Shown here: positions 29,491-56,019 of the stretch, piece after piece
How positions within the stretch are numbered: the first letter of the stretch is position 1
Layout: each line of letters opens with the position of its first letter
Source: Hymenobacter sp. 15J16-1T3B
Lineage (GTDB): Bacteria > Bacteroidota > Bacteroidia > Cytophagales > Hymenobacteraceae
DNA: 64,000 nt
Reading direction: 5' to 3'
Assembly (NCBI RefSeq): GCF_020711235.1
Contig: NZ_JAJFAV010000013.1
Location: forward strand, 1-64,000
Position numbers and translations under genes: made by a program
The notes under the pieces: generated by a model
The model's database searches: none
Told to the model about the DNA's origin: nothing
What the model saw: the letters and a program-made list of their open reading frames with translations, nothing else

Positions 29491-29514
29491 AGCCCAATTG
29501 CCCGCGCTTATTTC

Positions 29515-29552
29515 GCAAAAAAGCCCGGTTCAGCTGAACCGGGCTTTTTTGC
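29515..29552. terminator. Fully palindromic bidirectional terminator
   Basis: A perfect 38-base palindrome with half-site GCAAAAAAGCCCGGTTCAG reads the same on both strands. It ends both folA and the convergent porU2-like gene. Confidence 0.9.
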
Positions 29553-30000
29553 GGGGTATGTCTTGGGCGCTAGCGCAGCAGCACGAGCTTGCCCCAGCCG
29601 TTGTGGAAGGCTCGGTCGGCGGCGGTGCGCCGGTGCTCGACCTGGCCCTCGGGGTCGTCGAGCACCACGCGGTAGAGGTAGGTGCCGTTGGCCAGGCGCG
29701 CGCCGTACTCGTCCGTGCCGTCCCAGGCGTAGCTGGTCACGTTGTTGCCGATGCGCAAGGGGCCCAGCTCGCTCTGCAGGATTTCGCGCACCACCTTGCC
29801 CGACACGGTCAGGATCTGGATCTTCAGGTTGCGCGGCGGCGTCGAGCCGGTGAGCGTGAACACGAAGCGCGCCGTGCTCGTGATGGGGTTCGGGTAGGGA
29901 AACACGTGGGTGATGCTGGTTTTGTTCACCACCTCGAAGGTGACCCCGTAGCGCTGCGCCGCCGCCGCGTTGTCGCCCATGTCCTTGGCCTGCACCTCCA
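29551..30000 (-). repeat. 450-bp duplicate, copy 1
   Basis: This segment matches 35040-35489 with a single C/T difference (in the CTCGCTCTG / CTCGTTCTG part). It covers the last 143 codons of the PorU2-like gene and 19 bases past its stop. Outside these limits the two genes diverge clearly. Confidence 0.9.
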
Positions 30001-33000
30001 ACTTGTACACCCCGTCGGCAAGCGGCACTCGTTTGCCGTCCAGTTGGGTATCGGGCAGGTAATACACGCGGGTGCGGCCGGCCGCCGCGTCGTTGACCAA
30101 GTGGATGGCCAAGTTATTGGTCATCGGCACGACTTCCGGGGTGGTGCTGCCGGGGCGGGTGAGCAGCAGCTGCACCTTGCTCGGGTCGGTCAGCGGACGG
30201 CGCTTGTCTTCGTACTTCACGTCGACGGCGACTTCCGGCGCGGGCGAAACGATGTCGCCGTTGAGGATGTGGATGCCGTCGAAGGCCACGTCGAGCACCG
30301 GCGGCACGTTGAAGTCGGGGGCCGTGAAGCTCAGGTTCAGCTCGTTGTTGTAGTACACCTGCTCGGGCAGCTCCTGCTCGTTGGCCACAATGCGGATGGT
30401 AGCCGGCCCGCGCACCGAAGTCACGTTCAGGCGGAAGTTGTAGACGGCGGTGGAATCGGCCCCGGGCCGCTGCGAGAAGCCCGCTACCCGGCTGGCCTGT
30501 ACCGTGGTCGTTTCGGACCGGCCGCTGCTGGTTTCCGTCACGATGGCCTTGGCCCGCGCCAGATCGGCAAAGCCGGTGGGCGCCACGTTTTCGAAGTACA
30601 CCGGCACGTTCAGCATCCCCGTGCTGGTGGCCGCCGCGTTGAGTGTGGCGGCGGAGTAAGCACCGGCCGGAATGCTGGGATGGTCGCGGCGCACCACGCC
30701 TTCGGGCAGGCCCTGGTAGGTCACCAGCCACTGCTTCAGCTGCGGGGGCGTGAGGTTGACGGTATCGCGCAACTCGAGTTCCAGCGCCAGGTACGGGTAC
30801 TGCCGGGCATCGACGCTGGCCAGCGACAGGGACGGGCTGGTCACGCTCGGGTTGAGTACGGTGCGCGCGTTGCTGGCGTCGTAGCCCACCAGGCGCAGCG
30901 TGTAGCGGTCGGCCGCGGCCCCGTCGGGGCGTTTGATGGTGTGGTAGAGCGTCTGCCACTGCTGGGCCGGCCCAATGCGGGTGCTGGTGAGGGTGCCGGC
31001 GGTGTTGCGGCCGGTGAGCGTGGCGTGCAGGGTGATGATCTGCTCGTAGCGGGGCGTGGGGTCGGCCGGCGAATAAGTGGATTCCTGGGTTTGCCCGGGG
31101 AAGCCTTTGCGCAGCAGCAGCAGCAGCGGGTCACCGTCCTGCGCCGTGTTGATGAGCTGGGAGCCCATGGCGCCGAGCTGGGCTTTGAGCGCCGGCAGAA
31201 AGGAGCTGAATTCCACCCGGTTCATCGACACCAGCGCCACGTACGCCCCGGTCGGCACGTTTTGCAGGAAGGTCAGCAGTTGGGCCTGCCGCTGGGCGCT
31301 GTTGATGTTGTCCGTTTGCAGCGTCGGCCCCCAGTTATCGGTGGTGGCGAAGTGGTAAAACGGCTTGCCGACTTCGCCGCACATCTGGTAAGGGCCGCCC
31401 GGCACGTTGCCGAGCTGCCGGATGCTCACCGGGTCGAACACCGCGGCAATGATGTTGGCCGGCGACACCGTGGGCGGTATCACGGCCTGCCCGCACCCGC
31501 CGGCCGACACCAGCGCGCCGTTCACGGTGATGCCGTAGGACTGCAGAAACGTAGCCTGGCGCACCACGTCGACGTTGTTGGAGCCCACCGTTTGCAGCTG
31601 CAGCGGCACGTTGATGTTGCCAAACTCCCAGCGGCCGCTCGGCACCTGCTGCGCCACCTGCGTCTTGGCATTGTCCACCATCTGTCCGTAGTGGCTCTGC
31701 GACCAGCCGCCCGGGCTCCCGTTGATGAAACGGAACGAGCTGCGCACCCAGGAGGTATCGAGGCCGGAAGGCGCGCCGGCGGGCGCAAAGCGCACGCGCC
31801 AGTAGTACACCAGCGAGTCGCGGCCGTTGGGGCGCAAGGGCAGGTTGGGCGTCCAGGACGCTACGTCGAGGGCGTTGAGCGTGGCGCGGGCCACCGGCGC
31901 CCCGAACGAGGGAATGGTATCCAGCTGAAATTCGTAGGCGAGCGGGTTGAGCTGCGGCGTGTTGCTCTGGCCCACCAGCCGCACATTCGTCCGCCCCACA
32001 ATGGCGTAAGGCGAAGGGTTCAGAATGGTGATGCCGCCGTTGAGGAAGTTGTAGGTCAGCGAGGCGGAGTTGTTGGTTTCCAGCAGCTCCGGAATCACGT
32101 TGGGGTTGTCGATGCGGACGGTGAACGTGTTGTTGCCAAACACCGCCGCCGCGGACGGGTTAGTCAGGGCCACCACCAGTACGGTATCCCGCAGAAAATA
32201 CGGGATGACAACCGGGGGCACCGGCAACGTGGTGCTGCCGCTCGGGCCCACCACGGTCCGGTCCACGGTGATGCGGATGCTGCGCACGGGCTCGATTCGG
32301 CCGTAGTTGCTCAGGCGCAGGCGTAGGTTGAAGCCCGGCGAGGAAGCCAGCACCCGCCCGCCGCTGGTGGCCTCGATGCTGATGGGCGCTACGCCCGGGG
32401 TGAACTGGTAATCGGGCAGGGCCGGCGAAAACAGCCCCACGGCCGGGTCGCCGTGCCAAGTGAAGTTGGTCATCATGGCCTGGCCCGTCAGGCTGGCCGG
32501 AATGCTGCTGTAGCGCGGAATGGTGTGCAGCCGCCGCAGCACCTCGGCCTGAATGGCCGGAATGGGCTTGCCGTGCCACGCCGCTTCGCGGAACATCACC
32601 CGGTACACCAGCTTCATGTACGTGTCCAGGTTGGGCGCATCGTCCAGGTCGGATTCGGCCAGCCAGCCAATGGCGCCTTTGCCCTCGGCCAGAATCCAGT
32701 CTTCGGGCAACGAGCCCAGGGCGGCGGACGCGGTGCGGCCGATTGCGCAGCCGGCCGCCATAAACACGGGGTACTTGCCGCCCTGCGCGTAGCCGCTGCC
32801 GGGGTGCTTGATGGACGGCGGCTGCATGTCGATGGTGCCGTCGGAGCCGTGACCGAAATAGGTCATCAGGGCCACCCCGGCGTTGATCTGGGGCACAATG
32901 TTGGCGCTGCCGGGGCCGTTGACGGGGTTGATCAGGGTCGTGACGTTGGCCCCGAACAGCGGCTTGCGGGCCGTGTCGGCGTAGGCCTGCAGGTAGCTGC

Positions 33001-34801
33001 TGAACAGCTGATGTTCGTTCGCGTCGTGCCCGCCGGCGAGATGCAGCACGTTTTTGCGCCAGGCCGCCGTCCCGGTCGCTTCATGGTCGCGCAGCTTTTC
33101 CAGGTAGGCCACCACTTGCGCGGGTGTGCGGGCCGGCACCCGGCCGGTAAACATGCGCGGCACGTAGTTGCTGTTCTGCCAGTCGGCCGTAAAGAAGATG
33201 TCGGAGGCGCCGCGGGTGCTGGCGGGCACCAGATCGGGGAACAGCGCCCGCTCGTTGGCCGGCGCTTGGCGGTACCGGCTGTTCAGCCCCAACGCGGGAT
33301 TGGATTCGGTGATGAAGATGCCCCGGCCCAGCAGCAGCAAATACCGGTCGGTGCGGGGGGCCGTGAGCAGGTACTGGGCAAATTGGCGCACGGCCAGCGG
33401 CGACCGTTCGCCGTAGTGAAACTGTTCGTAGAGCAGCTCGGAAGTCACCACCAGCGTATCGTAGGCCGGGTGGCCCGGCCCGGCCGTGGCGCGGTAGCTG
33501 GCGTAGGCCCGCACCGGGTTGGGGGTGCTGCCCGCCGGCTGCATCAGCGCCGTGCTGGTGACGATGATGAAATTGGGCTGCGCGGGGTTGAACACGCGGA
33601 AGCCGACACGCTGGGCGGGCATGGGCGTCAGGCTGCGCGCCGCATCGGCCAGCACCAGCTGGCGCGTGCTGCCCACGGCAGTCGCAAAGCCGTAGGCGCG
33701 GCGCTGCCCGCTCAAGGCCACGCCCGAGGTGCGGCGCACGTTGCCTGGGTCGGTTACGTCGTAGCCCACCACGGTGGCGGGTATGCTGTCGAGCTGGTAG
33801 TAAGCGGCGCCGGCCAGGGTGGAGTCGTTCCAGAAGTGTACCGCCCGGCTGCCGCTGGGCCAATGCGCCGCCTGCGGACTCACGATGCGCACGTACCCGA
33901 CGCAAAACTGGTCGTTGTTGGCGGTGCCGGCCCGCTCGAACCGCACGCCCAGCTGCCCGTTGCTGCCGAAGTCGCTGGGTTGCAGCCGCAGCGTCACGCG
34001 GCGGTTTTGGTAGGGCGCGTAGGTGATGGGGGGCGTGGTCAGGATGCGGGGCGTGCCGCTGCCGCCCGGCAGCGCGGAAATAATGGTGTTGTGAGTGCCC
34101 GTTTGGGCGCCCACCAGCACCGTTTCCAGCCAGGCCTGGGCCCCGGTGGCGGCCCGGCGAAACAGCGAATCGACGGTAATGGTCGTGCTGCCGTTGACGT
34201 CCGGGCTCAGGAAGGCTTCTCCTTTGTCGGCCCAGCTCAGGTAGGCTTGCTGCCCGTCGGTTTGGCCGTAGTTGTATTCGCTGGTGAGCAGCTTTAGGCG
34301 GTTCAGCAGCCAGTTCGCGTGCACCGTACCCGTGGCGGCCGTGGTCGTTTCCGTCATCCGCCGCCCGGCCGTGGTGGCCGACACGGTCAGGAAATACGCC
34401 GCGGTATCGGTGAAGAGACTGTAAAGCTGGTGCGGCTGGTCCCCGGGCTCCTTATACATGCCGCGGTCCAGCTTGCCGTCGTTGCGCTGGCCGTAGAACT
34501 CGAAGTAGGTGGTCGGGTCCAGCTGCCCCTGGTTGCCGCCGCCGTAGAGGGCTACTTCGCGGCCCCGGCGCCAGAGCTGCACCCGCTGCAGGTTGGTGCC
34601 CGCCCCGATACCGGCACGCGAGAGGTAGGTATGGTCGAGGCGGTAGATGCCGTCCTTGGTGATTTTGATTTTGTAGTACGACTGCGTGGGCACTATCCAC
34701 TCGTTGCCGTACGTGCTCGATTGCGCCTGCAATCGGGTGGCGCCCAACAGCCACAGCAAGGCTGTCAGGAAGCTCACCCACCTGGTAAATCGTTGTGTCA
34801 T
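29570..34801 (-). CDS. Giant C25 (gingipain-fold) protease, PorU2-like, copy A
   Basis: The 1743-residue protein starts at the ATG at 34801 with MTQRFTRWVSFLTALLWLLG, a signal peptide ending RLQA. The N-terminal part (about 30-350) is a beta-rich domain found in PorU proteins (YYKIKITKDGIYRLDHTYL). The C25 caspase-like domain (about 440-780) has the catalytic pair His651 in TYFGHGSDGTID and Cys685 in FMAAGCAIG. Further parts are Ig-like and CARDB-like modules, with WSQSHYGQM at about residue 1015-1040 and RDHPSIPAGAYSAATL near 1385. A FlgD-like end domain follows (FPYPNPITSTARFVFTLTGS; WDGTDEYGARLANGTYLYRV). PorU removes T9SS sorting domains and attaches cargo to the surface. This protein is several hundred residues longer than ordinary PorU and matches what is named PorU2. 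Confidence 0.85.
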   Translation of the reverse strand: MTQRFTRWVSFLTALLWLLGATRLQAQSSTYGNEWIVPTQSYYKIKITKDGIYRLDHTYLSRAGIGAGTNLQRVQLWRRGREVALYGGGNQGQLDPTTYFEFYGQRNDGKLDRGMYKEPGDQPHQLYSLFTDTAAYFLTVSATTAGRRMTETTTAATGTVHANWLLNRLKLLTSEYNYGQTDGQQAYLSWADKGEAFLSPDVNGSTTITVDSLFRRAATGAQAWLETVLVGAQTGTHNTIISALPGGSGTPRILTTPPITYAPYQNRRVTLRLQPSDFGSNGQLGVRFERAGTANNDQFCVGYVRIVSPQAAHWPSGSRAVHFWNDSTLAGAAYYQLDSIPATVVGYDVTDPGNVRRTSGVALSGQRRAYGFATAVGSTRQLVLADAARSLTPMPAQRVGFRVFNPAQPNFIIVTSTALMQPAGSTPNPVRAYASYRATAGPGHPAYDTLVVTSELLYEQFHYGERSPLAVRQFAQYLLTAPRTDRYLLLLGRGIFITESNPALGLNSRYRQAPANERALFPDLVPASTRGASDIFFTADWQNSNYVPRMFTGRVPARTPAQVVAYLEKLRDHEATGTAAWRKNVLHLAGGHDANEHQLFSSYLQAYADTARKPLFGANVTTLINPVNGPGSANIVPQINAGVALMTYFGHGSDGTIDMQPPSIKHPGSGYAQGGKYPVFMAAGCAIGRTASAALGSLPEDWILAEGKGAIGWLAESDLDDAPNLDTYMKLVYRVMFREAAWHGKPIPAIQAEVLRRLHTIPRYSSIPASLTGQAMMTNFTWHGDPAVGLFSPALPDYQFTPGVAPISIEATSGGRVLASSPGFNLRLRLSNYGRIEPVRSIRITVDRTVVGPSGSTTLPVPPVVIPYFLRDTVLVVALTNPSAAAVFGNNTFTVRIDNPNVIPELLETNNSASLTYNFLNGGITILNPSPYAIVGRTNVRLVGQSNTPQLNPLAYEFQLDTIPSFGAPVARATLNALDVASWTPNLPLRPNGRDSLVYYWRVRFAPAGAPSGLDTSWVRSSFRFINGSPGGWSQSHYGQMVDNAKTQVAQQVPSGRWEFGNINVPLQLQTVGSNNVDVVRQATFLQSYGITVNGALVSAGGCGQAVIPPTVSPANIIAAVFDPVSIRQLGNVPGGPYQMCGEVGKPFYHFATTDNWGPTLQTDNINSAQRQAQLLTFLQNVPTGAYVALVSMNRVEFSSFLPALKAQLGAMGSQLINTAQDGDPLLLLLRKGFPGQTQESTYSPADPTPRYEQIITLHATLTGRNTAGTLTSTRIGPAQQWQTLYHTIKRPDGAAADRYTLRLVGYDASNARTVLNPSVTSPSLSLASVDARQYPYLALELELRDTVNLTPPQLKQWLVTYQGLPEGVVRRDHPSIPAGAYSAATLNAAATSTGMLNVPVYFENVAPTGFADLARAKAIVTETSSGRSETTTVQASRVAGFSQRPGADSTAVYNFRLNVTSVRGPATIRIVANEQELPEQVYYNNELNLSFTAPDFNVPPVLDVAFDGIHILNGDIVSPAPEVAVDVKYEDKRRPLTDPSKVQLLLTRPGSTTPEVVPMTNNLAIHLVNDAAAGRTRVYYLPDTQLDGKRVPLADGVYKLEVQAKDMGDNAAAAQRYGVTFEVVNKTSITHVFPYPNPITSTARFVFTLTGSTPPRNLKIQILTVSGKVVREILQSELGPLRIGNNVTSYAWDGTDEYGARLANGTYLYRVVLDDPEGQVEHRRTAADRAFHNGWGKLVLLR

Positions 34802-34993
34802 AATCACCTATTCTATGAAACCGGGTATGCGTTTATTCGACCTGTGACAATTATCTACTGCAATAATTCCGGGGCCCCGAGCCCCTTTACCGGCCCTTTG
34901 AATTGCTCAGCGCCCAGCCGACTGCTGGCTCACCAACCCCGAACGGCGTGACAATTTACTTAAGCTCACCGCTTTTGACCTGGCCCCGCACCG

Positions 34994-35035
34994 CAAAAAA
35001 CCGGTGCCCCAGCTGTCAGCCAGAGCACCGGTTTG
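34994..35035 (-). terminator. Terminator of the upstream porU2-like gene
   Basis: On the minus strand AAACCGGTGC and GCACCGGTTT form the stem, followed by TTTTG. It separates the two porU2-like genes, so copy A probably has its own promoter within 34802-34990, although no clean TAnnTTTG was found there. Confidence 0.8.
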
Positions 35036-35039
35036 TATT

Positions 35040-35489
35040 GCGGGGTATGTCTTGGGCGCTAGCGCAGCAGCACGAGCTTGCCCCAGCCGTTGTGGAAGGC
35101 TCGGTCGGCGGCGGTGCGCCGGTGCTCGACCTGGCCCTCGGGGTCGTCGAGCACCACGCGGTAGAGGTAGGTGCCGTTGGCCAGGCGCGCGCCGTACTCG
35201 TCCGTGCCGTCCCAGGCGTAGCTGGTCACGTTGTTGCCGATGCGCAAGGGGCCCAGCTCGTTCTGCAGGATTTCGCGCACCACCTTGCCCGACACGGTCA
35301 GGATCTGGATCTTCAGGTTGCGCGGCGGCGTCGAGCCGGTGAGCGTGAACACGAAGCGCGCCGTGCTCGTGATGGGGTTCGGGTAGGGAAACACGTGGGT
35401 GATGCTGGTTTTGTTCACCACCTCGAAGGTGACCCCGTAGCGCTGCGCCGCCGCCGCGTTGTCGCCCATGTCCTTGGCCTGCACCTCCA
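35040..35489 (-). repeat. 450-bp duplicate, copy 2
   Basis: Partner of 29551-30000, differing at one base. It covers the 3' end of the second PorU2-like gene and 19 bases after its stop. Confidence 0.9.
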
Positions 35490-38400
35490 GCCGGTACACC
35501 CCATCGGGCAGGGTCCCGGGCGTGTAGTACACGCGGGTGCGCCCAGCGGTGGAGTCGTTCACGAGGCGAACCAGCGCGCTGTTGGTCATCGGCACGGTTT
35601 CGGGCACCGTACTACCGGGGCGGGTGAGCAGCAACTGCACCTTGCTCGGGTCGGTCAGCGGGCGGCGCTTGTCTTCGTAGCGCACCTCCACCAGCACCTC
35701 CGGGTTCGGCGAGACGATGTCGCCGTTGAGGATGTGGGTGCCGTCGAAGGCCACGTCGAGCACCGGCGGCACGGTGATGTTGGGGGCCGTGAAGCTCAGG
35801 TTCAGCTCGTTGTTGTAGTACACCTGCTCCGGCAATTCCTGCGAGTTGGCGATGATGCGGATGGTGGCCGCGCCCCGGACCGCCGATACGTTCAGGCGGA
35901 AGTTGTAGACGGCCGTGGAGTCAGCCCCGGGGCGCCGCGAGAAGCCCGCTACCCGGCTGGCGCGGATGGACACGGTATCGGGCCGGCCGCTGCTAGTTTC
36001 CGTCACGATGGCCTTGGCCCGCGTCAACGCCGAGAAACTGATCGGCGACACGTTCTCGAAGTACACCGGGATGTTCAGCATGCCCGTGCTGGCCGCCGCC
36101 GCGCTCAGCGTAGCGGCGTCGTAGGCCCCGTTCGGAATGCTGGGATGGTCGCGGCGCACCACCCCTTCGGGCACGCCCTGGTAGGTCACCAGCCACTGCT
36201 TCAGCTGCGGGGCCGTGCGGTTGGTGGTGTCGCGCAGCACCATTTGCAGCTGCAGGTACGGGTAGGTGTTGGCGTCGACGTTGGTCAACGAGTAAATCCC
36301 GTTGCGGGGCTGCACGTTGCGCCGCAGCACCACGCGGGTGTTGTTGCGGGTGTAGCCGATCAGGTTCAGCGTGTCGCTGTCGGCCAGCGGCTCGGGCAGC
36401 TTCACGGTGTGGAAGAGCGTCTGCCAGCGCTGGGCCGGCCCGATGAGCGTGCTCGTGACCGTGCCCGACCCTTCGCGGGTGCGCAGGGTATCGGCCAGGC
36501 TGATGGCCTGCTCGTTGCGCGGGATGGGGTTGCTGGGCGAGAACGTGACTTCGCGGCGGTCGGCGGGGAAGCCTTTGTGCAGCACCATGGCCAGCGGGTC
36601 GCCGTCCTGGGCCGAGCCAATGAGCTGGGAGCCCAGGGCCTGCAGTTCGGCTTTCAGGGCCGGGCTGAAGGAGCTGTAGTTGACCTTGTTGATGGTCAGC
36701 AGCGCCACGTAGGCCCCGTTGGGCACGTTGCGCAGCAGCTGCAGCAGCTGGCCCTGCCGCCGGGCGGTGTTGATGTTGTCGGTCAGGCTGTCGAGGCTGC
36801 GGTCGTAGGTGCTGGCGAAGTGGAAGTAGGTAATCGACCCCACGGCGCCGCAGGTGCTGTACGCGCCCCCGGGCAGGCTGTTGAGCTGCCGCAGGTTACG
36901 GCCTTCGAACACGGCCACCATGATGTTGGGCGAGCGAACCGTCACGCCGTTGTACACGCCGCAGTTGTCCACGCGCACCGGCTGGTTGTCGACGATGATG
37001 CCGTTGGAGAGCTGGAAGGTCGGGTTGGCGTCGGGGGCGCCTTTGGTCGACAGCTGCACAGTTCGGGTCCGTGCGTCAAACTCCCAGCGCCCGCTCGGCG
37101 CCGACTGCGTTACCCGGCTTTTCTCGTTGCGGGCCATCTGCCCGTAGTGGCTCTGCGACCAGCCGCCCGGGCTGCCGTTGATGAAGCGGAACGAGCTGTT
37201 GGCCCAGGTCACGTCGAGCCCGGCCGGAGCGGTGGCCGGCGAGAAGCGGAAGCGCCAGTAGTACACCAGCGAGTCGCGGCCGGCCGTGGGCAGCGTGGTG
37301 GTCCAGCTGGCAATGTCGCGGCCCGACACGGGGCCCGACTGCCGCCGGAACGCGGAGGTAAACGTCGGAATCGTGTCCAGCTCGAACTCATAGTTGATGG
37401 GCTGGAGCTGCGGCAGGTTGCTTTGGCCGACCAGGCGCACGGTGGCCCGGTTGACGATGGCAAATTCGGTGGGCTGCAGCAAGGTCACGCCCCCGTTCAA
37501 GAAGTTGTAGGTGAAGGTGGTCGAGTTGTTGGTCTCGTCCAGCTCGTCGATGACGTTCGGGTTGTCCAGCCGCACCGTGAAGGTGTTGGAGCCGAGCACC
37601 GACGTGCCCGCCGGGTTGGTCATCGAAATGTACACGGTGGTGTCGCGCAGGTAGTAGTGCAGCTTCTCCACCTTGCCGGGCAGGGGCGTGCCGTTCAGGG
37701 TGCGCTCCACGGTGATGCGCACCGAGTCGGTGACGATTTTGCCGGGGTTGCTGAGCTGCAGCTTCAGCCGGAAGGTGGGCATGTTCGCCAGCACCGGCCC
37801 GGCCCCATCGTCGACGCGGGCGGCCGTGGCGTTCGGGGTGAACTTGTAGTCGGGCTTTTCGGGGGCAAACAAGCTCAGCGCCGGGTCGCCCTGCCACGTC
37901 AGGTTCATCAGCAGCGAGAGGTAGTAGCGCCGCCCCTGGTTGTCGGCTGCGGGCGGGATGGTCAGCGACATGCGCCGCGCCACCTCGGCCTGCACCGCCG
38001 CCACGGATTTGCCGTACCAGTTGGGCTCGTTGAAGAGCGCCGAGTACATCTGGTTGCAGAAGCGGTCCTGGTCGTTTTCCAGCCCGAAATCCGAGTCGGC
38101 CAGGAAGCCGATAATGCCCTTGTTGGCAATCAGCAGCCAGTCCTCGGCAATGGAGCCGCCGGTGGTGTAGGTGTTGCCGGCCGCGCAGCCGTTGACGTAG
38201 AACACCGGGTACTTGCCGCCGCCGCTGGGGTAGTTGCTGCCCGGGTCGTTGATGGACGTGGGCAGCAGGTCCAGGTAGTTGGTGGAGCCGTGGCCGAAGT
38301 AGGTAATCAGGCTCAGGCCCTTGCGCAGCTGCGGGGTAATGTCCACGGAAACCACCCCGCCATTGACCAGCGGCGTGGTATTGTAGATGTTTTCCACGTT

Positions 38401-40263
38401 GGCCCCGAAGAAGGGCATTTCCGCCTTGCGCTGGTAGCCCCGCAAAAACGACTGGAAGCGCGTAAACTCGCTGGCGTCGTGGCCGCCGGCCATGTGCAGG
38501 ATGTTTTTGCGCCAGGGTTCGGCGCCCAGTGCCTCGTACTGCTTGAGCTTGTCGAGGTAATTGAGCACCTGCTGGCTCGTCACGGCCGGAATGCGCCCCG
38601 TCGGGATGCGCGGCACGTACGAGCCGTTTTGCCAGTCGGCGGTAAAGAAGATGTCGGAGGCCCCGCGGGTGCTGGTGGGCACCAAATCGGGCCACACGGC
38701 GCGGTTGGCCGCCGAGGTCTGCCGGTAGAAGCCGCCCGCCGACTCGGTGATGAGCACACCCTTGCCCAGCAGCAGCAGGTAGCGGTTGGCCCGCGGCGAG
38801 GCCAGCAGGTAATTGGCGAAATGCTTGATGGCCAGCGGCGACCGTTCGCCGTAGTGAAACTGGTCGTAGAGTTGGTCGGAGGTCACCACCAGCGTATCGT
38901 GGCGGCCGCCGGCCGCGGAGGCGCGGTAGGTGGCGTACTCGCGCACCGGGTTCACCTGGCCGGTGCCGGTGCGGCGCATCAGGGCCGCATTCGATACGAT
39001 GATGAAGTTGTGGCTGGCAGCGTTGATGGAGCGGAAGCGCATGGCCTGCGCGGCCGCCGGGGCCAGCGGCTGGGCAGCGTCGGCCAGCACCAACGCGCGC
39101 ATGCGCCCGACGGTGCCCGGGAAGCTGAAGCCGCGCCGCGTGGCCGAGAGGCTGGCGCTGCTCACGCGCTGCACGTTGTAGGGGTCGGCCACGTTGTAGC
39201 CGTACACCGTGGCCGGGATGCTATCCAGCTCGTAGTAGGCCCCGCCGGCGAGGGTGGAGTCGTTCCAGAACTGGAAATACTGGCGCCCGGCCTTCCAGTG
39301 GGCCGTCTGCGGGTACATCACCCGGGCATACCCGACCCGGAATTTGTCGGTGGGCGGGTTGACCGGCGCGGCCACTTCCTGGCGGATGCGCAGGCTGTTG
39401 GTGGTGCCGAAGTCGCTGCGCTGCAGTGCCAGGCGAGTGCGCAGCACATCGTAGCTGCCGTAGTTGAGCACGCCGAGCACCCGCGGCGCTCCGGTGCCGC
39501 CGGGCAGCACCGATACCACCGTGCTGTGGGGGTTGGGATACGCGCCCACCACCACGTAATCGAGCCAGGCCTGCGCGCCGCCGGGGGCAAGCCGCGACAT
39601 GGTTTGGGTGCCGTAAGCAAACCCCGTCAGCACGTAGGGCGGCCGGGTTTCCCCGACTGCTCCCCCCAAAAACCCTTCGCCGGTATCGGCCCAGGGTAGA
39701 AAGGCTACTTGCTGGTCGGTCTGGCCGTAGTTGTAGTCGCCGTTGTCCAGAATCAGGTTCTGCTGCAGCCAGTTGGCGTGCACGGTGCCGGCCGCCGAGG
39801 TGTTTTCGGCCATGTCGCGGCCGTTGGCTGTGGCCGACACCGTCAGGAAATACGCCGCCGTGTCGGTAAACAGGCTGTAGAGCTGGTGGGGCTGGTGGCT
39901 GGCCGCCAGGTACATGTCGCGGTCGAGCTTGCCATCGTTGCGCTGCCCGAAAAACTCCACGTAGGTCGTGGCGTCGAGCTGGGTGCGGTTGCCGCCGATG
40001 TAGCGCGCCACCTGTTGCCCGCGCCGCCACAGCTGCAGGCGCTGCGGGTTGACGGCCCCGCTCAGGCCCGCCTGCGTGAGGTAGGTGTAATCGAGGCGGT
40101 AGATGCCGTCCTGCGTGACTTTGATTTTGTAGTAGGTCTGCGTAGGCACTATCCATTCGTTGCCGTACGGCCCCGATTGGGCCCGCGCAACCACCCCGCT
40201 GGCCACCAAAGCCAGCAGCAACCCCAGGCAGCGAGTCAGTAGCCGGGTATATCGTTGAGTCAT
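35059..40263 (-). CDS. Giant C25 (gingipain-fold) protease, PorU2-like, copy B
   Basis: The 1734-residue paralogue of copy A starts at the ATG at 40263 (MTQRYTRLLTRCLGLLLALV; signal ending VARA). The domain order is the same: the N-terminal PorU-type beta domain (YYKIKVTQDGIYRLDYTYL), then the C25 domain with His658 in TYFGHGSTNYLD and Cys693 in YVNGCAAG, then CARDB/Ig-like modules and the FlgD-like end. The last 143 residues are almost identical to copy A, while the rest has diverged (roughly half to two thirds identical by eye). The upstream porV2-like gene ends 60 bp before the start with no terminator between, so the pair is probably one operon. Both catalytic residues are intact in both copies, so neither looks decayed. 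Confidence 0.85.
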   Translation of the reverse strand: MTQRYTRLLTRCLGLLLALVASGVVARAQSGPYGNEWIVPTQTYYKIKVTQDGIYRLDYTYLTQAGLSGAVNPQRLQLWRRGQQVARYIGGNRTQLDATTYVEFFGQRNDGKLDRDMYLAASHQPHQLYSLFTDTAAYFLTVSATANGRDMAENTSAAGTVHANWLQQNLILDNGDYNYGQTDQQVAFLPWADTGEGFLGGAVGETRPPYVLTGFAYGTQTMSRLAPGGAQAWLDYVVVGAYPNPHSTVVSVLPGGTGAPRVLGVLNYGSYDVLRTRLALQRSDFGTTNSLRIRQEVAAPVNPPTDKFRVGYARVMYPQTAHWKAGRQYFQFWNDSTLAGGAYYELDSIPATVYGYNVADPYNVQRVSSASLSATRRGFSFPGTVGRMRALVLADAAQPLAPAAAQAMRFRSINAASHNFIIVSNAALMRRTGTGQVNPVREYATYRASAAGGRHDTLVVTSDQLYDQFHYGERSPLAIKHFANYLLASPRANRYLLLLGKGVLITESAGGFYRQTSAANRAVWPDLVPTSTRGASDIFFTADWQNGSYVPRIPTGRIPAVTSQQVLNYLDKLKQYEALGAEPWRKNILHMAGGHDASEFTRFQSFLRGYQRKAEMPFFGANVENIYNTTPLVNGGVVSVDITPQLRKGLSLITYFGHGSTNYLDLLPTSINDPGSNYPSGGGKYPVFYVNGCAAGNTYTTGGSIAEDWLLIANKGIIGFLADSDFGLENDQDRFCNQMYSALFNEPNWYGKSVAAVQAEVARRMSLTIPPAADNQGRRYYLSLLMNLTWQGDPALSLFAPEKPDYKFTPNATAARVDDGAGPVLANMPTFRLKLQLSNPGKIVTDSVRITVERTLNGTPLPGKVEKLHYYLRDTTVYISMTNPAGTSVLGSNTFTVRLDNPNVIDELDETNNSTTFTYNFLNGGVTLLQPTEFAIVNRATVRLVGQSNLPQLQPINYEFELDTIPTFTSAFRRQSGPVSGRDIASWTTTLPTAGRDSLVYYWRFRFSPATAPAGLDVTWANSSFRFINGSPGGWSQSHYGQMARNEKSRVTQSAPSGRWEFDARTRTVQLSTKGAPDANPTFQLSNGIIVDNQPVRVDNCGVYNGVTVRSPNIMVAVFEGRNLRQLNSLPGGAYSTCGAVGSITYFHFASTYDRSLDSLTDNINTARRQGQLLQLLRNVPNGAYVALLTINKVNYSSFSPALKAELQALGSQLIGSAQDGDPLAMVLHKGFPADRREVTFSPSNPIPRNEQAISLADTLRTREGSGTVTSTLIGPAQRWQTLFHTVKLPEPLADSDTLNLIGYTRNNTRVVLRRNVQPRNGIYSLTNVDANTYPYLQLQMVLRDTTNRTAPQLKQWLVTYQGVPEGVVRRDHPSIPNGAYDAATLSAAAASTGMLNIPVYFENVSPISFSALTRAKAIVTETSSGRPDTVSIRASRVAGFSRRPGADSTAVYNFRLNVSAVRGAATIRIIANSQELPEQVYYNNELNLSFTAPNITVPPVLDVAFDGTHILNGDIVSPNPEVLVEVRYEDKRRPLTDPSKVQLLLTRPGSTVPETVPMTNSALVRLVNDSTAGRTRVYYTPGTLPDGVYRLEVQAKDMGDNAAAAQRYGVTFEVVNKTSITHVFPYPNPITSTARFVFTLTGSTPPRNLKIQILTVSGKVVREILQNELGPLRIGNNVTSYAWDGTDEYGARLANGTYLYRVVLDDPEGQVEHRRTAADRAFHNGWGKLVLLR

Positions 40264-40323
40264 AGTCAAATTGCTAGATGCGAAGCCAGTACGTCGCCGG
40301 GCCATCTTCCGTTCCTTCTCCCC

Positions 40324-41436
40324 TTATTTAAAGCCGTAGCCCAACGACACCATGATGGAGTTGGCCTGGGAGCTGGCGCCTAGCCGCTCGATGGCCAGGC
40401 GCGACAAGGCCAAATCGAGGCGCAGGCCGCTCAGGGCCACGCCCACGCCCAGCGTGGGTTGCACCTTCCACTCTTCCTGGCCGCTGAAGGATTTGATTTT
40501 TTGCACGTTGGTGGCCCCACCGCGCAGGAACAGCAGGTTCTTGTAGCCGATTTCGGCGCCCACGTGCGGGGCAATGCTCACGAAGTCACTCGACACGGGC
40601 GTATTGCGCTTGCCGTCGGTGGTCATTTCCAGGTCGAGGGCGGCCACGGCGGTCAGGTCGGCGGGCAGCTTGAACGAGCGGCTCACCCCGAGCACAAAGC
40701 GCGGCAGGGTAATTTCGGTGCTGTTCTTGGGAATAAAATCCAGCGTATCCTGCGTGGGCTTGAACTTGTCCGTGTTCATCGACCAGGCGTTGAACGTGGT
40801 GGTGATGTCGCGGGCCATCAGAGCCAGGCGCCAGTTGCCGCGCTGGTACTGCGCGCCTGCGTCCACGCCGAAGCCCCAGGCGTTGGCGTAGTCGCCCACG
40901 TTGCGGTAGATAATTTTGGCGTTGGCGCCGATGCTCAGGCCCTCAATGGCTTCCAGCTTGCGCGCGTACGAGAGCAGCAGGCCGTAGTCGGCCACCGAGA
41001 AGTAGGTAATCCGGTCGTAGCTGATCTGGTTGTACTCGTTGACCAGCGCCCGCGTGTCGGGAATGTCGTCGACGCCGACGCGGATAATGCTGGCCCCGAT
41101 GGCGCTGCGCTCGTCCAGCGGCATGGAAAAGGCCGCGTAGTCATTCTTCACGATGCCCGAAAACAACTCGGAGTGCATCAGCACCGCGTCGTACTTGGTT
41201 TTTTGGCCGACCAAGCCGGCCGGGTTCCAGTAACCGGCGGTGGCATCCTGCGCCAGGCTTACTTGGGTACCACCCATGGCCAGGGCGCGCCCCCCTACCC
41301 CGATGGAGAGGAAGTCGTTGCTATACTTCGGCGTGTTGTCTCTGGTGGGCGTGGTGGTCTGGGCCAGCGCGGCACCAGTCCCTACCAAGGAAACCGTCGA
41401 GAAGGCGAGGATACTGCGGCGGAAAAAGTGTGGCAT
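40324..41436 (-). CDS. PorV2-like outer-membrane protein (PorV/PorQ family)
   Basis: The 370-residue protein starts at the ATG at 41436, with a signal ending TGAALAQ. The first mature part is the PorV/PorQ hallmark FLSIGVGGRALAMGGTQVSL followed by AQDATAGYWNPAGLVG. The rest alternates strands as in a 14-stranded FadL-like barrel and ends SIMVSLGYGFK. PorV collects cargo from the T9SS channel and hands it to the PorU sortase. Its place directly before a PorU2-like gene supports a matching shuttle-sortase pair. It is predicted to sit in the outer membrane. The sequence is closer to what is called PorV2 than to PorV of the attachment complex, by my recollection. Confidence 0.85.
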   Translation of the reverse strand: MPHFFRRSILAFSTVSLVGTGAALAQTTTPTRDNTPKYSNDFLSIGVGGRALAMGGTQVSLAQDATAGYWNPAGLVGQKTKYDAVLMHSELFSGIVKNDYAAFSMPLDERSAIGASIIRVGVDDIPDTRALVNEYNQISYDRITYFSVADYGLLLSYARKLEAIEGLSIGANAKIIYRNVGDYANAWGFGVDAGAQYQRGNWRLALMARDITTTFNAWSMNTDKFKPTQDTLDFIPKNSTEITLPRFVLGVSRSFKLPADLTAVAALDLEMTTDGKRNTPVSSDFVSIAPHVGAEIGYKNLLFLRGGATNVQKIKSFSGQEEWKVQPTLGVGVALSGLRLDLALSRLAIERLGASSQANSIMVSLGYGFK

Positions 41437-41458
41437 AGAGTAATGAAGTAGAAGCCGG

Positions 41459-41483
41459 GCGTTGTAAGCAGGCTTCACAACGC
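41459..41483 (-). promoter_or_regulatory. Inverted repeat upstream of porV2-like gene
   Basis: Seven-bp arms GCGTTGT (41459-41465) and ACAACGC (41477-41483) lie 23 bases before the start codon. It could be an operator or a leader hairpin. Confidence 0.35.
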
Positions 41484-51870: not shown

Positions 51871-52548
51871 TTATTCGGGCGCGTATTTGAGGAAGGTGCG
51901 CGTCGTGCGCAGGGTGCCCGTGCGTAACTCCAGCGTGTGGTTGCCGTTGCGCAGCCGCCGCACGTCGATGCGCTGCCCGGCCGCCAAACGGCCGGTAAGC
52001 ACGGTGCGGCCCGCGGCATCCAGAATGCGGTACTCGCCGCTGGCGTTGCCGCAGCTGAGCCAATCCGTTGCCGGGTTGGGGCTGGGCTGCCACGCAACGT
52101 TTTCGGGGGTATAGGTGAGCACGGCGGACGTGCCGCTGCCCCCGGCCACCGGTTGCCGCAGCCGGTAATACACCGTGCCGCCGCCCGCACTGGTGTCCAT
52201 AAACCGGTAGGCGCTGCCCTGGGCAGTTGTGACTACGCCGACTAATCGAAACACGCTGCCATCGGTAGACCGCTCGACTTCAAAACGCAGCGGGGTTTTG
52301 ACGGGCGGAGCCGTCCAGGTCAGCAGCACGCCTTGAGGAGCAGCAGTAGCCGTCAACCCGCTGGCGGCCGACGGAGCCGCGGCAGTACCGGCCGGTTTGG
52401 TCGCTTCGGCGGGGGGTGGCCCTCCGGCGGCTCCGTCGCCGGAAACGCTCTGTTGGGCTACTGCCATTCCGGGGACGAAGCCCAAGGCCCAAAGAGCCCA
52501 CGTAACCGACCGCAACACTTGGCCACGGCCATGGGAGGAAGTTTTCAT
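51871..52548 (-). CDS. Minimal T9SS-type cargo: FN3-like module plus sorting end
   Basis: The 225-residue protein starts at the ATG at 52548; the signal ends GMAVAQ. A Gly/Pro/Ala linker (about 30-60) is followed by a fibronectin-III-like module: GVLLTWTAPPVKTPLRFEVE, then RSTDGSVFRLVG, then GTVYYRLRQPV. The C-terminal region has WQPSPNPATDWLSCG and an end RTLRTTRTFLKYAPE-like, the outline of a T9SS type A sorting domain. Larger cargo in this window (52688-55372 and 56020-60858) has the same FN3-like unit before its sorting domain, but here no passenger precedes it. It is therefore a shortened cargo or a small adapter. Confidence 0.75.
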   Translation of the reverse strand: MKTSSHGRGQVLRSVTWALWALGFVPGMAVAQQSVSGDGAAGGPPPAEATKPAGTAAAPSAASGLTATAAPQGVLLTWTAPPVKTPLRFEVERSTDGSVFRLVGVVTTAQGSAYRFMDTSAGGGTVYYRLRQPVAGGSGTSAVLTYTPENVAWQPSPNPATDWLSCGNASGEYRILDAAGRTVLTGRLAAGQRIDVRRLRNGNHTLELRTGTLRTTRTFLKYAPE

Positions 52549-52629
52549 GCGGGTTGTGGGGTAGCAGATGAAGCAGGACAATATAGTATTTTTTATACAT
52601 ATATTTATATTTAATTCACTGATATATAC

Positions 52630-52662
52630 AAAAAAACGACCACCGCTGGAGCGGTGGTCGTT
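52630..52662 (-). terminator. Terminator of the 894-residue cargo gene
   Basis: AACGACCACCGC and GCGGTGGTCGTT pair around TGGA, followed by TTTTT on the minus strand. Confidence 0.85.
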
Positions 52663-52687
52663 GCAAACAGCGCTTGATGCGCAGCCG

Positions 52688-55372
52688 TTAGTTGGTTTTG
52701 ATCAGGGAACGAACGACGCGCTGGGTGCCGCTGCGGATTTCCAGCTGGTAGCTGCCAGCGGGCAGGGTGCTCAGGTCCACGGTAGCCTCGCCAAATGCCT
52801 TGCCTTGACGCAGGGGCTGGCCCAGCAGGCTCAGCACGCTCCACTGCACCGGGTTTTCGCCCAGTTGCAGGTGCAGCTCGTGCTGTACGGGGTTGGGGTA
52901 GGCCGACACGAGCAGCTGTTCCGAACCACCGAGTACCACGATGCGCGAGTCAGTAGCCGTGCCGTCGAGGTCCACCTGGTGCAGGCGGTAGTATACGGTA
53001 CCGGCCGCGGCTTTGTCGAGGAAGCTGTAATCAATGGCACGGGTGCTGTTGCCTTGGGCCTGCACTTTGCCAATGGTCTGGAACTCGCGGCCGTCGCGGC
53101 TGCGCTGCACTTCAAAGTAAGCGCTGTTCTTTTCCAGGGCCGTGGTCCAGCGCAGCAGCGCGTCGGCATTGCGGCGCTCGGCCGTGAAGCTGGTCAGCTC
53201 CACGGGCAGCGGGTTGTTGCCGGGGGCGTTGCTGTAGTTGGTGGTGGCCAGCGTGAATTCCGTAATCGTGGTAATGGCCGTCGTGCTGGCAACGGTACCG
53301 GCCAGGAAAGACGCCCCATCAGCTTGCGCACCCGTTACCGAGCCGCCGATATCATTCCAACGCCCGAACGCACTCTGCGCAATACGCAGGGTAGCCGGAG
53401 CATCAACTTGGTCGATGCCGATGAAGCCCAGGGAAATCTGCGCGTTGGTGAACGAAGCGTTGGTGTAGCCACTGTAGTAGCGTACGCCCGACACGCGTTG
53501 CAGCGCATTGGCACCCGTGGGCAACGTGTACAGCGGGGCGCGGTCGGCAATGGCTTCAAACTGATAAGAGGCCGAGGCACTGGATTGCGTCAGGGACAAC
53601 GTAACCGGGCCGTAACCGTTGGGCGTACCGATCGGGAAGAAAAGGCCGGTGCTGCTCGAAGCAGCGTACACGCCGCTGCCCGTAGCCGAGCGCACCATCA
53701 GACCTTCCACGTAGCTCGTGCGGCTGGCGCCGAGGACGGAGGCCGACGTCGGCATGCTCAGGTAATTGGTGCTGCTGCCGATGAGGTGGCCGCTCCGCCC
53801 CGTGAAACGCAAAGCTTTGGGAACGTCAATCGGGCGCAACAACCGAACACCCAACGGGTTGTCGAGCACCAGCGTGGCATTGCTGCCCAAAATCGTAGCC
53901 CCGGCCGTACCAATGGTTTGCACGGCGCCGGTGCCGTTGAGGGTAACATCAGCCGCAGTAGCCGGGTTGAAGGTCAGCTGCGAGCCGCTGCCAATCTCGA
54001 TGTTGCCGCCGATGGTGACGCCACCGGTGTTGTTCAGGTTGACAATAGCGCCGCCCGAGGCGAGCAGGCTGTTTTGGATGGTGGTGGCAAAAGTGCCGGC
54101 CGTGGTGTAGCTCAACCGGAAATCCAGGTTGCCGTAGGTGCGGGCTGCTTCGGAGAAGGTGCCGCCGAAGTAGCGGTAGGTGCTACCGCCCTGGAAAACG
54201 GCTACGGCCGAGCCACCGTTACCGAACGGATCAAGGCCGCTGCGCTGCTCGAAGACCGAGCCGGATTCAAACACGACGGAACCTGCACCGGCTTTGCCCG
54301 TTGCCACGTTGCCTACGGGGTTTTCGGTGGTGGCGGTGGTGCCGAACGGATGACCCACTACTTCCGCCGAGCTGAAGAGCGACCCGCTGCGGAACCGAAT
54401 GGCGCCGGCGTCGGCCGCAACGAAGCGCTGCGGAATGTTGGTGCTGGTGCCAAGCACGTTCTGGTACGAACCGCTGATGCTGGCCGTGCTGCCCGTGGGC
54501 AGGTTGACCACGATGTAGCGGTTGTTGGTGTTCGAGCCGGTGGTCATGGTGACGCCCGAGCCGGATTCAATTACAAAATCGTCTCCGGTGGTACCGGTAT
54601 TGCCGATTTGCAGGGTACCGGCGGTGTTGGCAGTGCTCGGCGCGTAGAACGTCGGAACAGCGTTGTTAACGATATACAGCTGACCAAAGATCTGCTCGTC
54701 GCGGTTGCTGCCGAAGTCACGGGCAATTTGCACCGTCGGGGCACTGGTCACGGCGCCGTCAAATACCAATACGTCGTTGGCGTTGGGCGTCGGGTTGCCG
54801 GAGGTCGGGTTAGGCAGGATGCGGTTGGGCGACCAGTTGGTAGCCGTGCCAAAATCTGCCGGGTTGCTGGTGCTGGCGCTGGCGTTGTTCCAGGTATAGG
54901 TGGGCAGGGCCAGGAAAGACAGCGTGGACGGGTTGGTTTGGAGGTAATCGGTGCCGCTGCCGTCTTGGTTGTAGGCGTACACGTCGACCACGTAGGAAGA
55001 GTTGGCCGCCAGGCCCGCCACGGTGATTTTGTTGAACGTTGCCGCGGTGGGCGGCACGTCGGCGTACACCACGTAGTTGCCCGCGCCGGTCGTGCGGTTG
55101 GTGCCGGTGGTGCCGTAAGTCAGGCTGGGCGAGTAGGTCACGCCATCGGTAGGTGCCACGCGGCTTACGGTGCTCAGGCGCACCACAACCAGGTAACGAG
55201 TGCCGTCACCGCTGGTCAATTTCAGGCCGGCCGAAGGTGCAGTAGCAGTAGCTCCACTGACCGGGTTATAGCCCACCGTAGGCTGCGCAGTAGGTTCGGT
55301 AGCCGCGTGGGCTGCATACCCGATTCCTGACCCTAATACTATTAGGAGGAGCCTCGTAAAATTGTTAATCAT
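52688..55372 (-). CDS. Secreted T9SS type A cargo protein, beta-rich
   Basis: The 894-residue protein starts at the ATG at 55372 with signal peptide MINNFTRLLLIVLGSGIGYA. The N-terminal part has an FN3-like module (LKLTSGDGTRYLVVVRLSTV; YVVDVYAYNQDGSGTDYLQT). The middle (about 165-560) is a low-complexity beta-helix-like region rich in Gly, Thr, Ser and Asn. A second FN3-like unit (NPLPVELTSFTAERRNADAL; FEVQRSRDGREFQTIGKVQA; VYYRLHQVDLDGTATDSRIV) precedes the sorting domain (VSAYPNPVQHELHLQLG to RSLIKTN). It is predicted to be a surface or released protein without a recognisable enzyme; an adhesin or matrix role is plausible. Confidence 0.88.
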   Translation of the reverse strand: MINNFTRLLLIVLGSGIGYAAHAATEPTAQPTVGYNPVSGATATAPSAGLKLTSGDGTRYLVVVRLSTVSRVAPTDGVTYSPSLTYGTTGTNRTTGAGNYVVYADVPPTAATFNKITVAGLAANSSYVVDVYAYNQDGSGTDYLQTNPSTLSFLALPTYTWNNASASTSNPADFGTATNWSPNRILPNPTSGNPTPNANDVLVFDGAVTSAPTVQIARDFGSNRDEQIFGQLYIVNNAVPTFYAPSTANTAGTLQIGNTGTTGDDFVIESGSGVTMTTGSNTNNRYIVVNLPTGSTASISGSYQNVLGTSTNIPQRFVAADAGAIRFRSGSLFSSAEVVGHPFGTTATTENPVGNVATGKAGAGSVVFESGSVFEQRSGLDPFGNGGSAVAVFQGGSTYRYFGGTFSEAARTYGNLDFRLSYTTAGTFATTIQNSLLASGGAIVNLNNTGGVTIGGNIEIGSGSQLTFNPATAADVTLNGTGAVQTIGTAGATILGSNATLVLDNPLGVRLLRPIDVPKALRFTGRSGHLIGSSTNYLSMPTSASVLGASRTSYVEGLMVRSATGSGVYAASSSTGLFFPIGTPNGYGPVTLSLTQSSASASYQFEAIADRAPLYTLPTGANALQRVSGVRYYSGYTNASFTNAQISLGFIGIDQVDAPATLRIAQSAFGRWNDIGGSVTGAQADGASFLAGTVASTTAITTITEFTLATTNYSNAPGNNPLPVELTSFTAERRNADALLRWTTALEKNSAYFEVQRSRDGREFQTIGKVQAQGNSTRAIDYSFLDKAAAGTVYYRLHQVDLDGTATDSRIVVLGGSEQLLVSAYPNPVQHELHLQLGENPVQWSVLSLLGQPLRQGKAFGEATVDLSTLPAGSYQLEIRSGTQRVVRSLIKTN

Positions 55373-56019
55373 GCAAAAGGAGTTGGAATGGAACGTCTCA
55401 GACAAGTAATGGGGGTTAGCGTGGTGGGTTTGCCTACTACCACGCTTATCTACTACTTGAAACCAAAATTATATAAATTTTCCTCTACTTGTGTATAGCT
55501 CAAATCATGACAGTTCCACAAATGATAAAAATCATACTGAATCTTCCCGTTTAGGGAAAATATAAGGCATACAAAAGCCCCGGTTACAAGGCGCAGCCAG
55601 GGCTGAGTGCAAAGGTAGGGCCCAAGCCCCCGTCTGAACAAGCGCCGAGAAATGTTGACGGGCTACGACCCAGCCTGCGGCCTGCTAACTGCCTTTCTTG
55701 GCTGATTTTCTTCAAACTACCGCTTCCGTTTCCTGCTTAGCGGCAGTGGCGCCGTACTTCCCGGTACTAGCTGCGCCTGCCTGCGGGTGGTGGTCCGTGG
55801 CCGCTCCGCTCCGGTTGGCCCGGCAAACAATTGCCGCAGCCCCGCAGGAGTGGAAGACAAACCCGGTGTTGTCCAGCTCCATGCTCATTTGGGCAACGCC
55901 TAGCCCACTGCCACCGCGCTTCCAATATGACTTCGCCGGCTGCGGCTACCCGAGTGACAAAAAAACGAGCAGCCCAGGCGTGGGCTGCTCGTTGCTAAAA
56001 GTCACCAGCGGCTTGCTGC
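55373..56019. other. Gene-free stretch with AT-rich promoter zone
   Basis: No convincing gene is seen. An AT-rich segment near 55460-55500 contains AAAATT-ATATA-AATTTT and a minus-strand TAATTTTG (55471-55464) that could be the -7 element of the downstream cargo gene. The rest has no feature apart from the terminator at 55958-55993. A short plus-strand frame in 55698-56075 runs across that terminator and is not believed. Confidence 0.5.
55958..55993 (-). terminator. Terminator of the 1612-residue cargo gene
   Basis: AACGAGCAGCCCA and TGGGCTGCTCGTT pair; on the minus strand a TTTTTT tract follows. Confidence 0.85.

Follow-up and report, generated by a model that had tools for sequence, protein, structure and literature searches.

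The 64,000-nucleotide stretch of the Hymenobacter sp. 15J16-1T3B genome analyzed here, hereafter the window (contig NZ_JAJFAV010000013.1; C4:1-64000 in our numbering), encodes three consecutive minus-strand open reading frames (ORFs), a PorV/PorQ-family protein (PorV2) followed by two giant C25-family, PorU-like proteins (PorU2a and PorU2b). Judged by sequence, neither giant is the ordinary PorU sortase of the type IX secretion system (T9SS), and their C-terminal domains (CTDs), like those of two further tandem pairs in the Hymenobacteraceae, have been homogenized by gene conversion. We regard as evenly balanced the proposition that PorV2 and PorU2 constitute a second T9SS dock-plus-peptidase unit, which in this genome would pair a single dock with two catalytic heads. 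The homogenization of the CTDs in three tandem pairs is new here, whereas the families themselves are already named; the NCBIfam titles "putative type IX secretion system sortase PorU2" and "putative type IX sorting system protein PorV2" are annotation, and no publication on the function of PorU2 or PorV2 was found in the open-licence PMC literature.

PorU2a and PorU2b scored 895.2 and 812.9 bits, respectively, against NCBIfam NF052324 (PorU2; 879-position model, cut-off 450), and PorV2 scored 497 bits against NF052325 (PorV2; cut-off 325). On the canonical PorU model, NF033707, the giants reached 196.3 and 191.5 bits, both below the cut-off of 420, with alignments spanning positions 4-669 and 4-737 in the two, corresponding to the PorU N-terminal region and the C25 part. 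PorV2 passed the wider PorV/PorQ model NF033709 (117.9 bits, cut-off 90) and scored just 42.1 bits on the canonical PorV model NF033710, below its cut-off of 250. A 15-row PorV2 profile matched the PorV structure 6h3i (E 7.6e-7), and the sole phmmer match of PorV2 alone was a weak one to a sulfhydrogenase subunit (E 0.02). BamG was considered as an identity for PorV2 and dropped, being absent among the solved-structure matches of the profile that retrieves PorV. Elsewhere in the genome (6.33 Mb, 42 contigs) a canonical PorU is encoded at C39:2795-6259 (1249.2 bits, 1321 residues), with a PorV-family protein directly downstream on the same strand (408.8 bits on NF033709; not scored on NF033710). 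This separate porU-porV pair, for which the preliminary description of the locus had recommended a search, together with the sub-cut-off PorU scores, sets PorU2 apart from PorU; the giants fall outside canonical PorU by sequence score and are not the simple duplication of the ordinary sortase that the same description had considered. A further PorV/PorQ-family protein lies above cut-off on C37 (156.1 bits), and three more matches fall below it.

The locus had been described beforehand as a PorV/PorQ-family gene followed on the same strand by two C25-fold proteins of 1734 and 1743 residues, each with the His in FGHGS and Cys in a GC(A)xG context. The ORFs and the Pfam C25 scores (193.5 bits for PorU2a and 165.4 for PorU2b, cut-off 23) confirm this, with C25 assigned by sequence family, and the dyad is present in both proteins as His672/Cys707 in PorU2a and His653/Cys687 in PorU2b, in the contexts FGHGS and GCAAG/GCAIG, respectively. 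Both residues are retained in 112/112 aligned PorU2 rows, which comprise proteins above 250 bits on a home-made PorU2 profile and longer than 800 residues, with near-duplicates removed and weaker relatives left unaligned. A nine-row profile of the PorU2 N-terminal part matched Lys-gingipain (4rbm; E 6.3e-7), with the FGHG His and GC Cys aligned to chain positions 216 and 249 (hand-counted), a spacing of 33. The catalytic residues of Lys-gingipain, which we take to be His444 and Cys477, have the same spacing, and the expected alignment of the dyad with gingipain residues is found by sequence profile. PorU2 (1748 and 1745 residues) is some 400 residues longer than the PorU of the same genome and includes an ILEI/GG-type domain, which in PorU2a scored 24.0 bits on Pfam ILEI, below the cut-off of 27, and was matched at E <= 0.01 in all eight PorU2 rows scanned (best E 3e-8). 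Animal relatives of this domain in the search listing include FAM3 and the POMGnT1 stem. The POMGnT1 stem binds sugar, and it may be guessed that the PorU2 domain binds glycan.

The CTDs of PorU2a and PorU2b scored 77.2 and 66.1 bits on the PorU tail model and 19.0 and 17.8 bits on the type A model, below its cut-off of 23. Ten further C-terminal ends were scanned for the PorU tail, type A, and the PorZ end. In PorV2-linked PorU2 relatives from outside the Hymenobacteraceae the three scores were, in that order, 78.9, 21.6 (E 1.6e-4), and 33.3 bits for G276; 80.7, 25.9, and 34.3 bits for the second PorU2 gene of G098; 74.0, 24.6, and 31.7 bits for G133; and 63.7, 21.9, and 21.6 bits for G014. 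PorU2-like ends of other classes gave PorU tail and type A scores of 78.7 and 35.4 bits (G400) and 63.7 and 22.3 bits (G316), and the CTD of the first PorU2 of G098 was not recognisable. The CTDs tested from PorV2-linked PorU2 proteins appear to resemble the PorU/PorZ kind, a reading weakened by the unequal column coverage of the two models, larger for PorU than for type A, which prevents a direct comparison of their bits. In PMC10202324 (also PMC11285876 and PMC5562754), the CTDs of PorU and PorZ are reported to remain unprocessed and bound to PorV and PorQ; by analogy, the PorU2 CTD would likewise be uncleaved and bound to PorV2. Encoded away from PorV2, the second PorU2 of G133 (L063:4943-9847) ends in a plain type A CTD (57.1 bits) without a PorU tail match. 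G133 lacks PorU, and this protein perhaps represents a branch of the family that is cargo-like or replaces PorU.

PorU2a and PorU2b are 61% identical overall, the catalytic halves within the three Hymenobacteraceae tandem pairs being 56-59% identical, and the genes of PorU2a and PorU2b share 419 of the final 420 nucleotides and all of the next 21 nucleotides past the stop codon. At 4-fold degenerate sites the last 140 codons agree at 81/81 positions in the window, 77/80 in G173, and 76/78 in G516, compared with 165/292, 221/308, and 160/285, respectively, over the first ~900 codons (Fisher p = 9.2e-18, 2.2e-7, and 2.1e-14, with sites assumed independent). Between species, the CTD sites agree at 57/71 for PorU2a and G002, 56/71 for PorU2b and G003, and 44/68 for both G173a-G516a and G173b-G516b. 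Conservation alone therefore does not account for the within-genome identity, and the value of 44/68 shows that conversion in G173 and G516 postdates their split. The tract of G516 extends for at least 280 codons (next bin 83/86), i.e. beyond the CTD, and part of the middle is also similar in G173 (158/195). In a quick-method tree built from 44 rows of the N-terminal half, PorU2a groups with the single PorU2 of G002 (86% identity across this half) and PorU2b is sister to the single PorU2 listed for G003, both with an SH-like approximate likelihood ratio test (SH-aLRT) support of 100, and a separate clade unites the G468 copy with the second copies of G173 and G516. Tandem copies thus have at least two origins, with later loss of either copy or exchange between species, which the tree cannot separate.

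A single PorV2-PorU2 pair is ordinary in the Hymenobacteraceae and the second PorU2 is the exception. PorU2 is above cut-off in 8/8 genomes of the genus and 148 of 150 of the family, with a second copy above cut-off in at least three of the latter (this genome, G173, and G516), a minimum as matches were listed down to 751.9 bits. PorV2 followed by PorU2, on one strand and at the same locus, was found in all 36 Hymenobacteraceae loci fetched, namely the window and 35 others hand-picked, not drawn at random, from the 150 searched; the fmt-side neighbor is present in 34 of these 35, the remaining one being G173, whose stretch stops 2.4 kb past its second PorU2. In an even sample of 395 genomes of the phylum, with scoring limited in each genome to two PorU2 candidates, two PorU candidates, and five PorV2 candidates, 33 genomes had PorU2 above cut-off, 68 had PorV2, and 257 had PorU. 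PorV2 accompanies PorU2 in 25/33 genomes and adjoins it on one strand in 20 of these 25, and PorU is present in 29/33 (E <= 1.1e-160).

The following mechanism builds on the gene content, homology, dyad, CTD kind, conversion, and locus conservation observed; its inferred elements are docking on PorV2, catalysis by PorU2, selection for conversion, and which clients are acted on. PorU2 would be exported via the T9SS by its own PorU/PorZ-type CTD, would retain this CTD, and would be anchored at the cell surface through PorV2 as its dock, where its C25 Cys/His peptidase or transpeptidase would act on clients outside the bulk of type A cargo. In this genome, porU2 is duplicated in place, with gene conversion holding the two CTDs identical as the peptidase and middle domains diverge; given identical CTDs, both PorU2 proteins should fit the single PorV2. 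In its fuller form, which we advance tentatively, the pair would be a second T9SS route of attachment or processing that operates without PorU and PorV on a client class of its own, and the duplicated porU2 genes would supply interchangeable heads with a converted common CTD and specialising peptidase halves.

The four PorU2 genomes of the phylum sample without PorU above cut-off (G014, G098, G133, and G276) serve as natural experiments on these proposals. They hold 8, 52, 96, and 1 type A matches, respectively, and the first three each have a strong PorV-family protein (431.5, 403.9, and 357.1 bits). In G276 (L168, L245), GldK, GldL, GldM, and GldN are above cut-off, PorV2 is the sole PorV-family match, and neither PorU nor canonical PorV was found; the lone type A match is marginal (E 2.2e-4) and its place is not listed. 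A motif search for SprA over the part of the G276 genome that was read (24%) found none. A home-made type A/B profile found nothing in 800 kb (24%) of this genome and L168; the profile also misses the CTD of PorU2 itself in L168, and its negative is weak evidence. A PorV2-PorU2 pair can thus be maintained alongside T9SS motor genes where PorU, canonical PorV, and all but one marginal type A match are missing.

The chief rival, which we judge rather unlikely, is a dedicated shuttle with its effector, in which PorV2 serves just to carry PorU2, itself a free-standing surface protease without a sorting function, much as type B adhesins have their own PorP/SprF shuttle; cognate shuttle-client gene pairs of this kind are known for type B (PMC12618676). 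PorV2 as the only PorV-family match in G276 would suit such an arrangement, as would the lone type A match of that genome (E 2.2e-4), which is probably the CTD of PorU2 itself (21.6 bits, E 1.6e-4), but the alignment of PorU2 with the N-terminal region of PorU in addition to the C25 part, and a CTD of the PorU/PorZ kind, argue against it. The conversion pattern is compatible with both this rival and the dock-plus-peptidase unit, and fits both a CTD that is the shared, constrained part next to a variable catalytic half and a conversion that merely begins in the most conserved stretch.

It is distinctly unlikely that PorU2 acts as a genuine second sortase on ordinary type A cargo, running parallel to PorU and replacing it where it is lost. 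The two PorU2 proteins each of G098 and G133, set beside the 52 and 96 type A matches of these genomes, would fit a takeover of the job of PorU there, and six f36 genomes without PorU above cut-off have PorU2-like proteins at 362-425 bits (cut-off 450) and 16-58 type A matches. PorU is, however, kept in 29 of 33 PorU2 genomes, G276 has PorU2 yet a single marginal match, and four genomes with neither PorU nor PorU2 (G087, G106, G137, and G154) retain 4, 9, 9, and 15 type A matches. Among f5 genomes, type A matches number 18-121 in seven that have PorU together with PorU2, and 18 and 12 in two that have PorU but no PorU2 above cut-off, all such counts being small numbers uncorrected for kinship. 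Least probable of all is that PorU2b is a duplicate with no function of its own, either redundant or in decay: only one of the eight genomes of the genus has a second copy, and the end branch of PorU2b in the N-terminal tree (0.39) exceeds that of PorU2a (0.057), but the gene retains a 1745-codon open frame, an intact dyad, and a recently converted CTD, and the sole PorU2 listed for G003 groups with it as sister.

Several observations weigh against a second dock-plus-peptidase unit. PorV2 is below cut-off or absent in 8/33 PorU2 genomes, PorU2 likewise in 43/68 PorV2 genomes, and the two genes lie apart in 5/25 genomes with both, so that PorU2 and PorV2 are not obligate partners. In a mirror-tree check (39 rows), PorV2 correlated with the PorU2 CTD at r = 0.852 and with other PorU2 parts at 0.887-0.937; covariation with PorV2 shows a CTD-specific signal nowhere. 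Two canonical PorU ends (27.7 and 25.5 bits) and two of the four PorV2-linked relatives exceed the type A cut-off of 23. The third catalytic residue of the gingipains is presumably Asp388 of Kgp, and the place aligned with it is, by eye, unconserved in PorU2. AlphaFold models of PorU2a residues 46-960 (9 rows) and 911-1748 (8 rows) were poor, with a mean predicted local distance difference test (pLDDT) score of 46.0 and 57.4, respectively, and give no structural support. No conversion is seen in the tandem pairs of two species that share one distant genus, G062 (10/36) and G258 (13/37), where the stretch fetched contains no PorV2, and conversion of the CTD may be mechanical, this being the most conserved stretch. 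A Foldseek search with the 911-1748 model placed PorU (6za2) at ranks 3-4 with a template modelling (TM) score of ~0.1 amid many immunoglobulin-rich proteins and was given no weight.

Among the eight PorU2 genomes without PorV2 above cut-off are G056, G193, and G153 (f2) and G197, G256, and G378 (f3), each with a strong PorV-family protein (373-421 bits), so PorU2 might use PorV there. At loci L071-L073, L157, and L158, in f3 genomes, PorU2 occurs without PorV2 and is shortened to 1080-1345 residues in four of five. Conversely, at 17 PorV2 loci (L133-L138, L140-L145, L151, L152, L160, L162, and L201), 13 above the PorV2 cut-off and four below it, no PorU or PorU2 relative was seen in the fetched stretch. 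In G098 (f5) the two PorU2 genes lie on either side of one PorV2.

Compared with known systems, the window proteins behave as members of the NCBIfam PorU2/PorV2 families, above curated cut-offs and with the side-by-side pair usual in Hymenobacteraceae, but differ in having two PorU2 behind one PorV2 and converted CTDs. The Porphyromonas gingivalis PorU-PorV-PorQ-PorZ attachment complex likewise has a C25 Cys/His enzyme, a PorU/PorZ-type CTD, and a PorV-family barrel beside it, whereas PorU2, known here from sequence, is a separate, longer family with an ILEI-type domain; the gene order is PorV2 then PorU2, in contrast to U then V in the canonical pair located elsewhere. As in the type B CTD protein and PorP/SprF shuttle of Flavobacterium johnsoniae, a surface protein and an outer-membrane shuttle are encoded together, but PorV2 belongs to the PorV/PorQ family, PorU2 has a CTD of the PorU/PorZ kind, and the protein carried is a C25-family enzyme. 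In BamG-BamH of the Bacteroidota β-barrel assembly machinery (BAM; PMC12578637), a FadL-type barrel also holds a large surface protein; BamH, however, is a lipoprotein scaffold, and the PorV2 profile retrieves PorV and not BamG. The T9SS reviews consulted describe a single sortase, PorU. If the proposal is true, a widespread second dock-plus-peptidase unit would account for the handling, across the phylum, of clients outside the reach of PorU, and the converted CTDs of tandem pairs would point to a shared interface as opposed to the part free to change. The informative genomes are G276, with the pair but neither PorU nor canonical PorV, G098 and G133, with two PorU2 and no PorU, and those with tandem pairs.

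The preliminary description had also proposed a second machine with its own shuttle, of which the PorV-family membership of PorV2 and the distinctness of PorU2 from PorU stand; its activity and any link to cargo are putative. Its further idea, that two sortases of different cargo choice match plural signals, is unsupported or at most inferred, and is disfavored also by G276, where PorV2-PorU2 occurs with one marginal type A match. Six likely T9SS cargo proteins of at least two sorting types had been counted in the window, and six are recovered: four with a type A and one with a type B CTD by own-genome lists, plus the small ORF of Table 1, which adjoins a larger type A protein at 52688-55405. 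Across the genome, type A CTD matches number at least 150 (of 200 candidates, 150 were scored), and 12 of the 16 type B matches are above cut-off; at this density ~1.7 matches are expected per 64 kb, compared with the five listed for the window. With at least 150 type A CTDs in the genome, the presence of six cargo genes in the window is weakly informative. The shuttles of type B clients are PorP/SprF proteins (PMC12618676), and one such client studied in P. gingivalis keeps its CTD uncleaved (PMC9143113).

Table 1. Features of the PorV2-PorU2 locus and the small cargo ORF, in positions of the window
Feature	Positions	Strand	Remarks
PorV2	40324-41478	minus	384 residues; PorV/PorQ-family outer-membrane barrel; candidate dock/shuttle
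PorU2a	35059-40305	minus	1748 residues, or 1734 if the start is the MTQ Met; C25-family, PorU-like
PorU2b	29570-34807	minus	1745 residues, or 1743 from MTQ; second C25-family PorU-like protein
ILEI/GG-type domain of PorU2a	36571-36768	minus	residues ~1180-1245; precedes the CTD
CTD conversion tract of PorU2a	35059-35478	minus	3' 420 nucleotides
CTD conversion tract of PorU2b	29570-29989	minus	3' 420 nucleotides
Terminator-like hairpin	29511-29556		20 pairs and T run; after PorU2b
Small ORF	51871-52701	minus	276-codon frame; type A by home-made profile only (independent E-value 2.3e-6)

PorV2 and PorU2a are separated by 18 bases and PorU2a and PorU2b by 251. A G+C-rich hairpin with a T run, with a loop longer than the terminator scan allows, was spotted by eye at ~34995-35032 after PorU2a, and together with the 251-base gap it may allow separate transcription of PorU2b. 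Terminator-like sites in the region are at chance level (11 versus 11.1 expected in shuffles), so only its stem length distinguishes the hairpin after PorU2b. Sigma-70-like promoter patterns (2 versus 1.5 expected) and Bacteroidota-like patterns (5 versus 4.67 expected) are likewise at chance in the region. Plus-strand ORFs of 942 and 1598 residues overlap the same DNA as the PorV2/PorU2 genes and are interpreted as antisense frames within GC-rich coding sequence. Both PorU2 copies have a hydrophobic N terminus, judged by eye only. The closest named relatives found are Hymenobacter loci, and PorU2a is 87% identical to its counterpart in L075, from H. edaphi.

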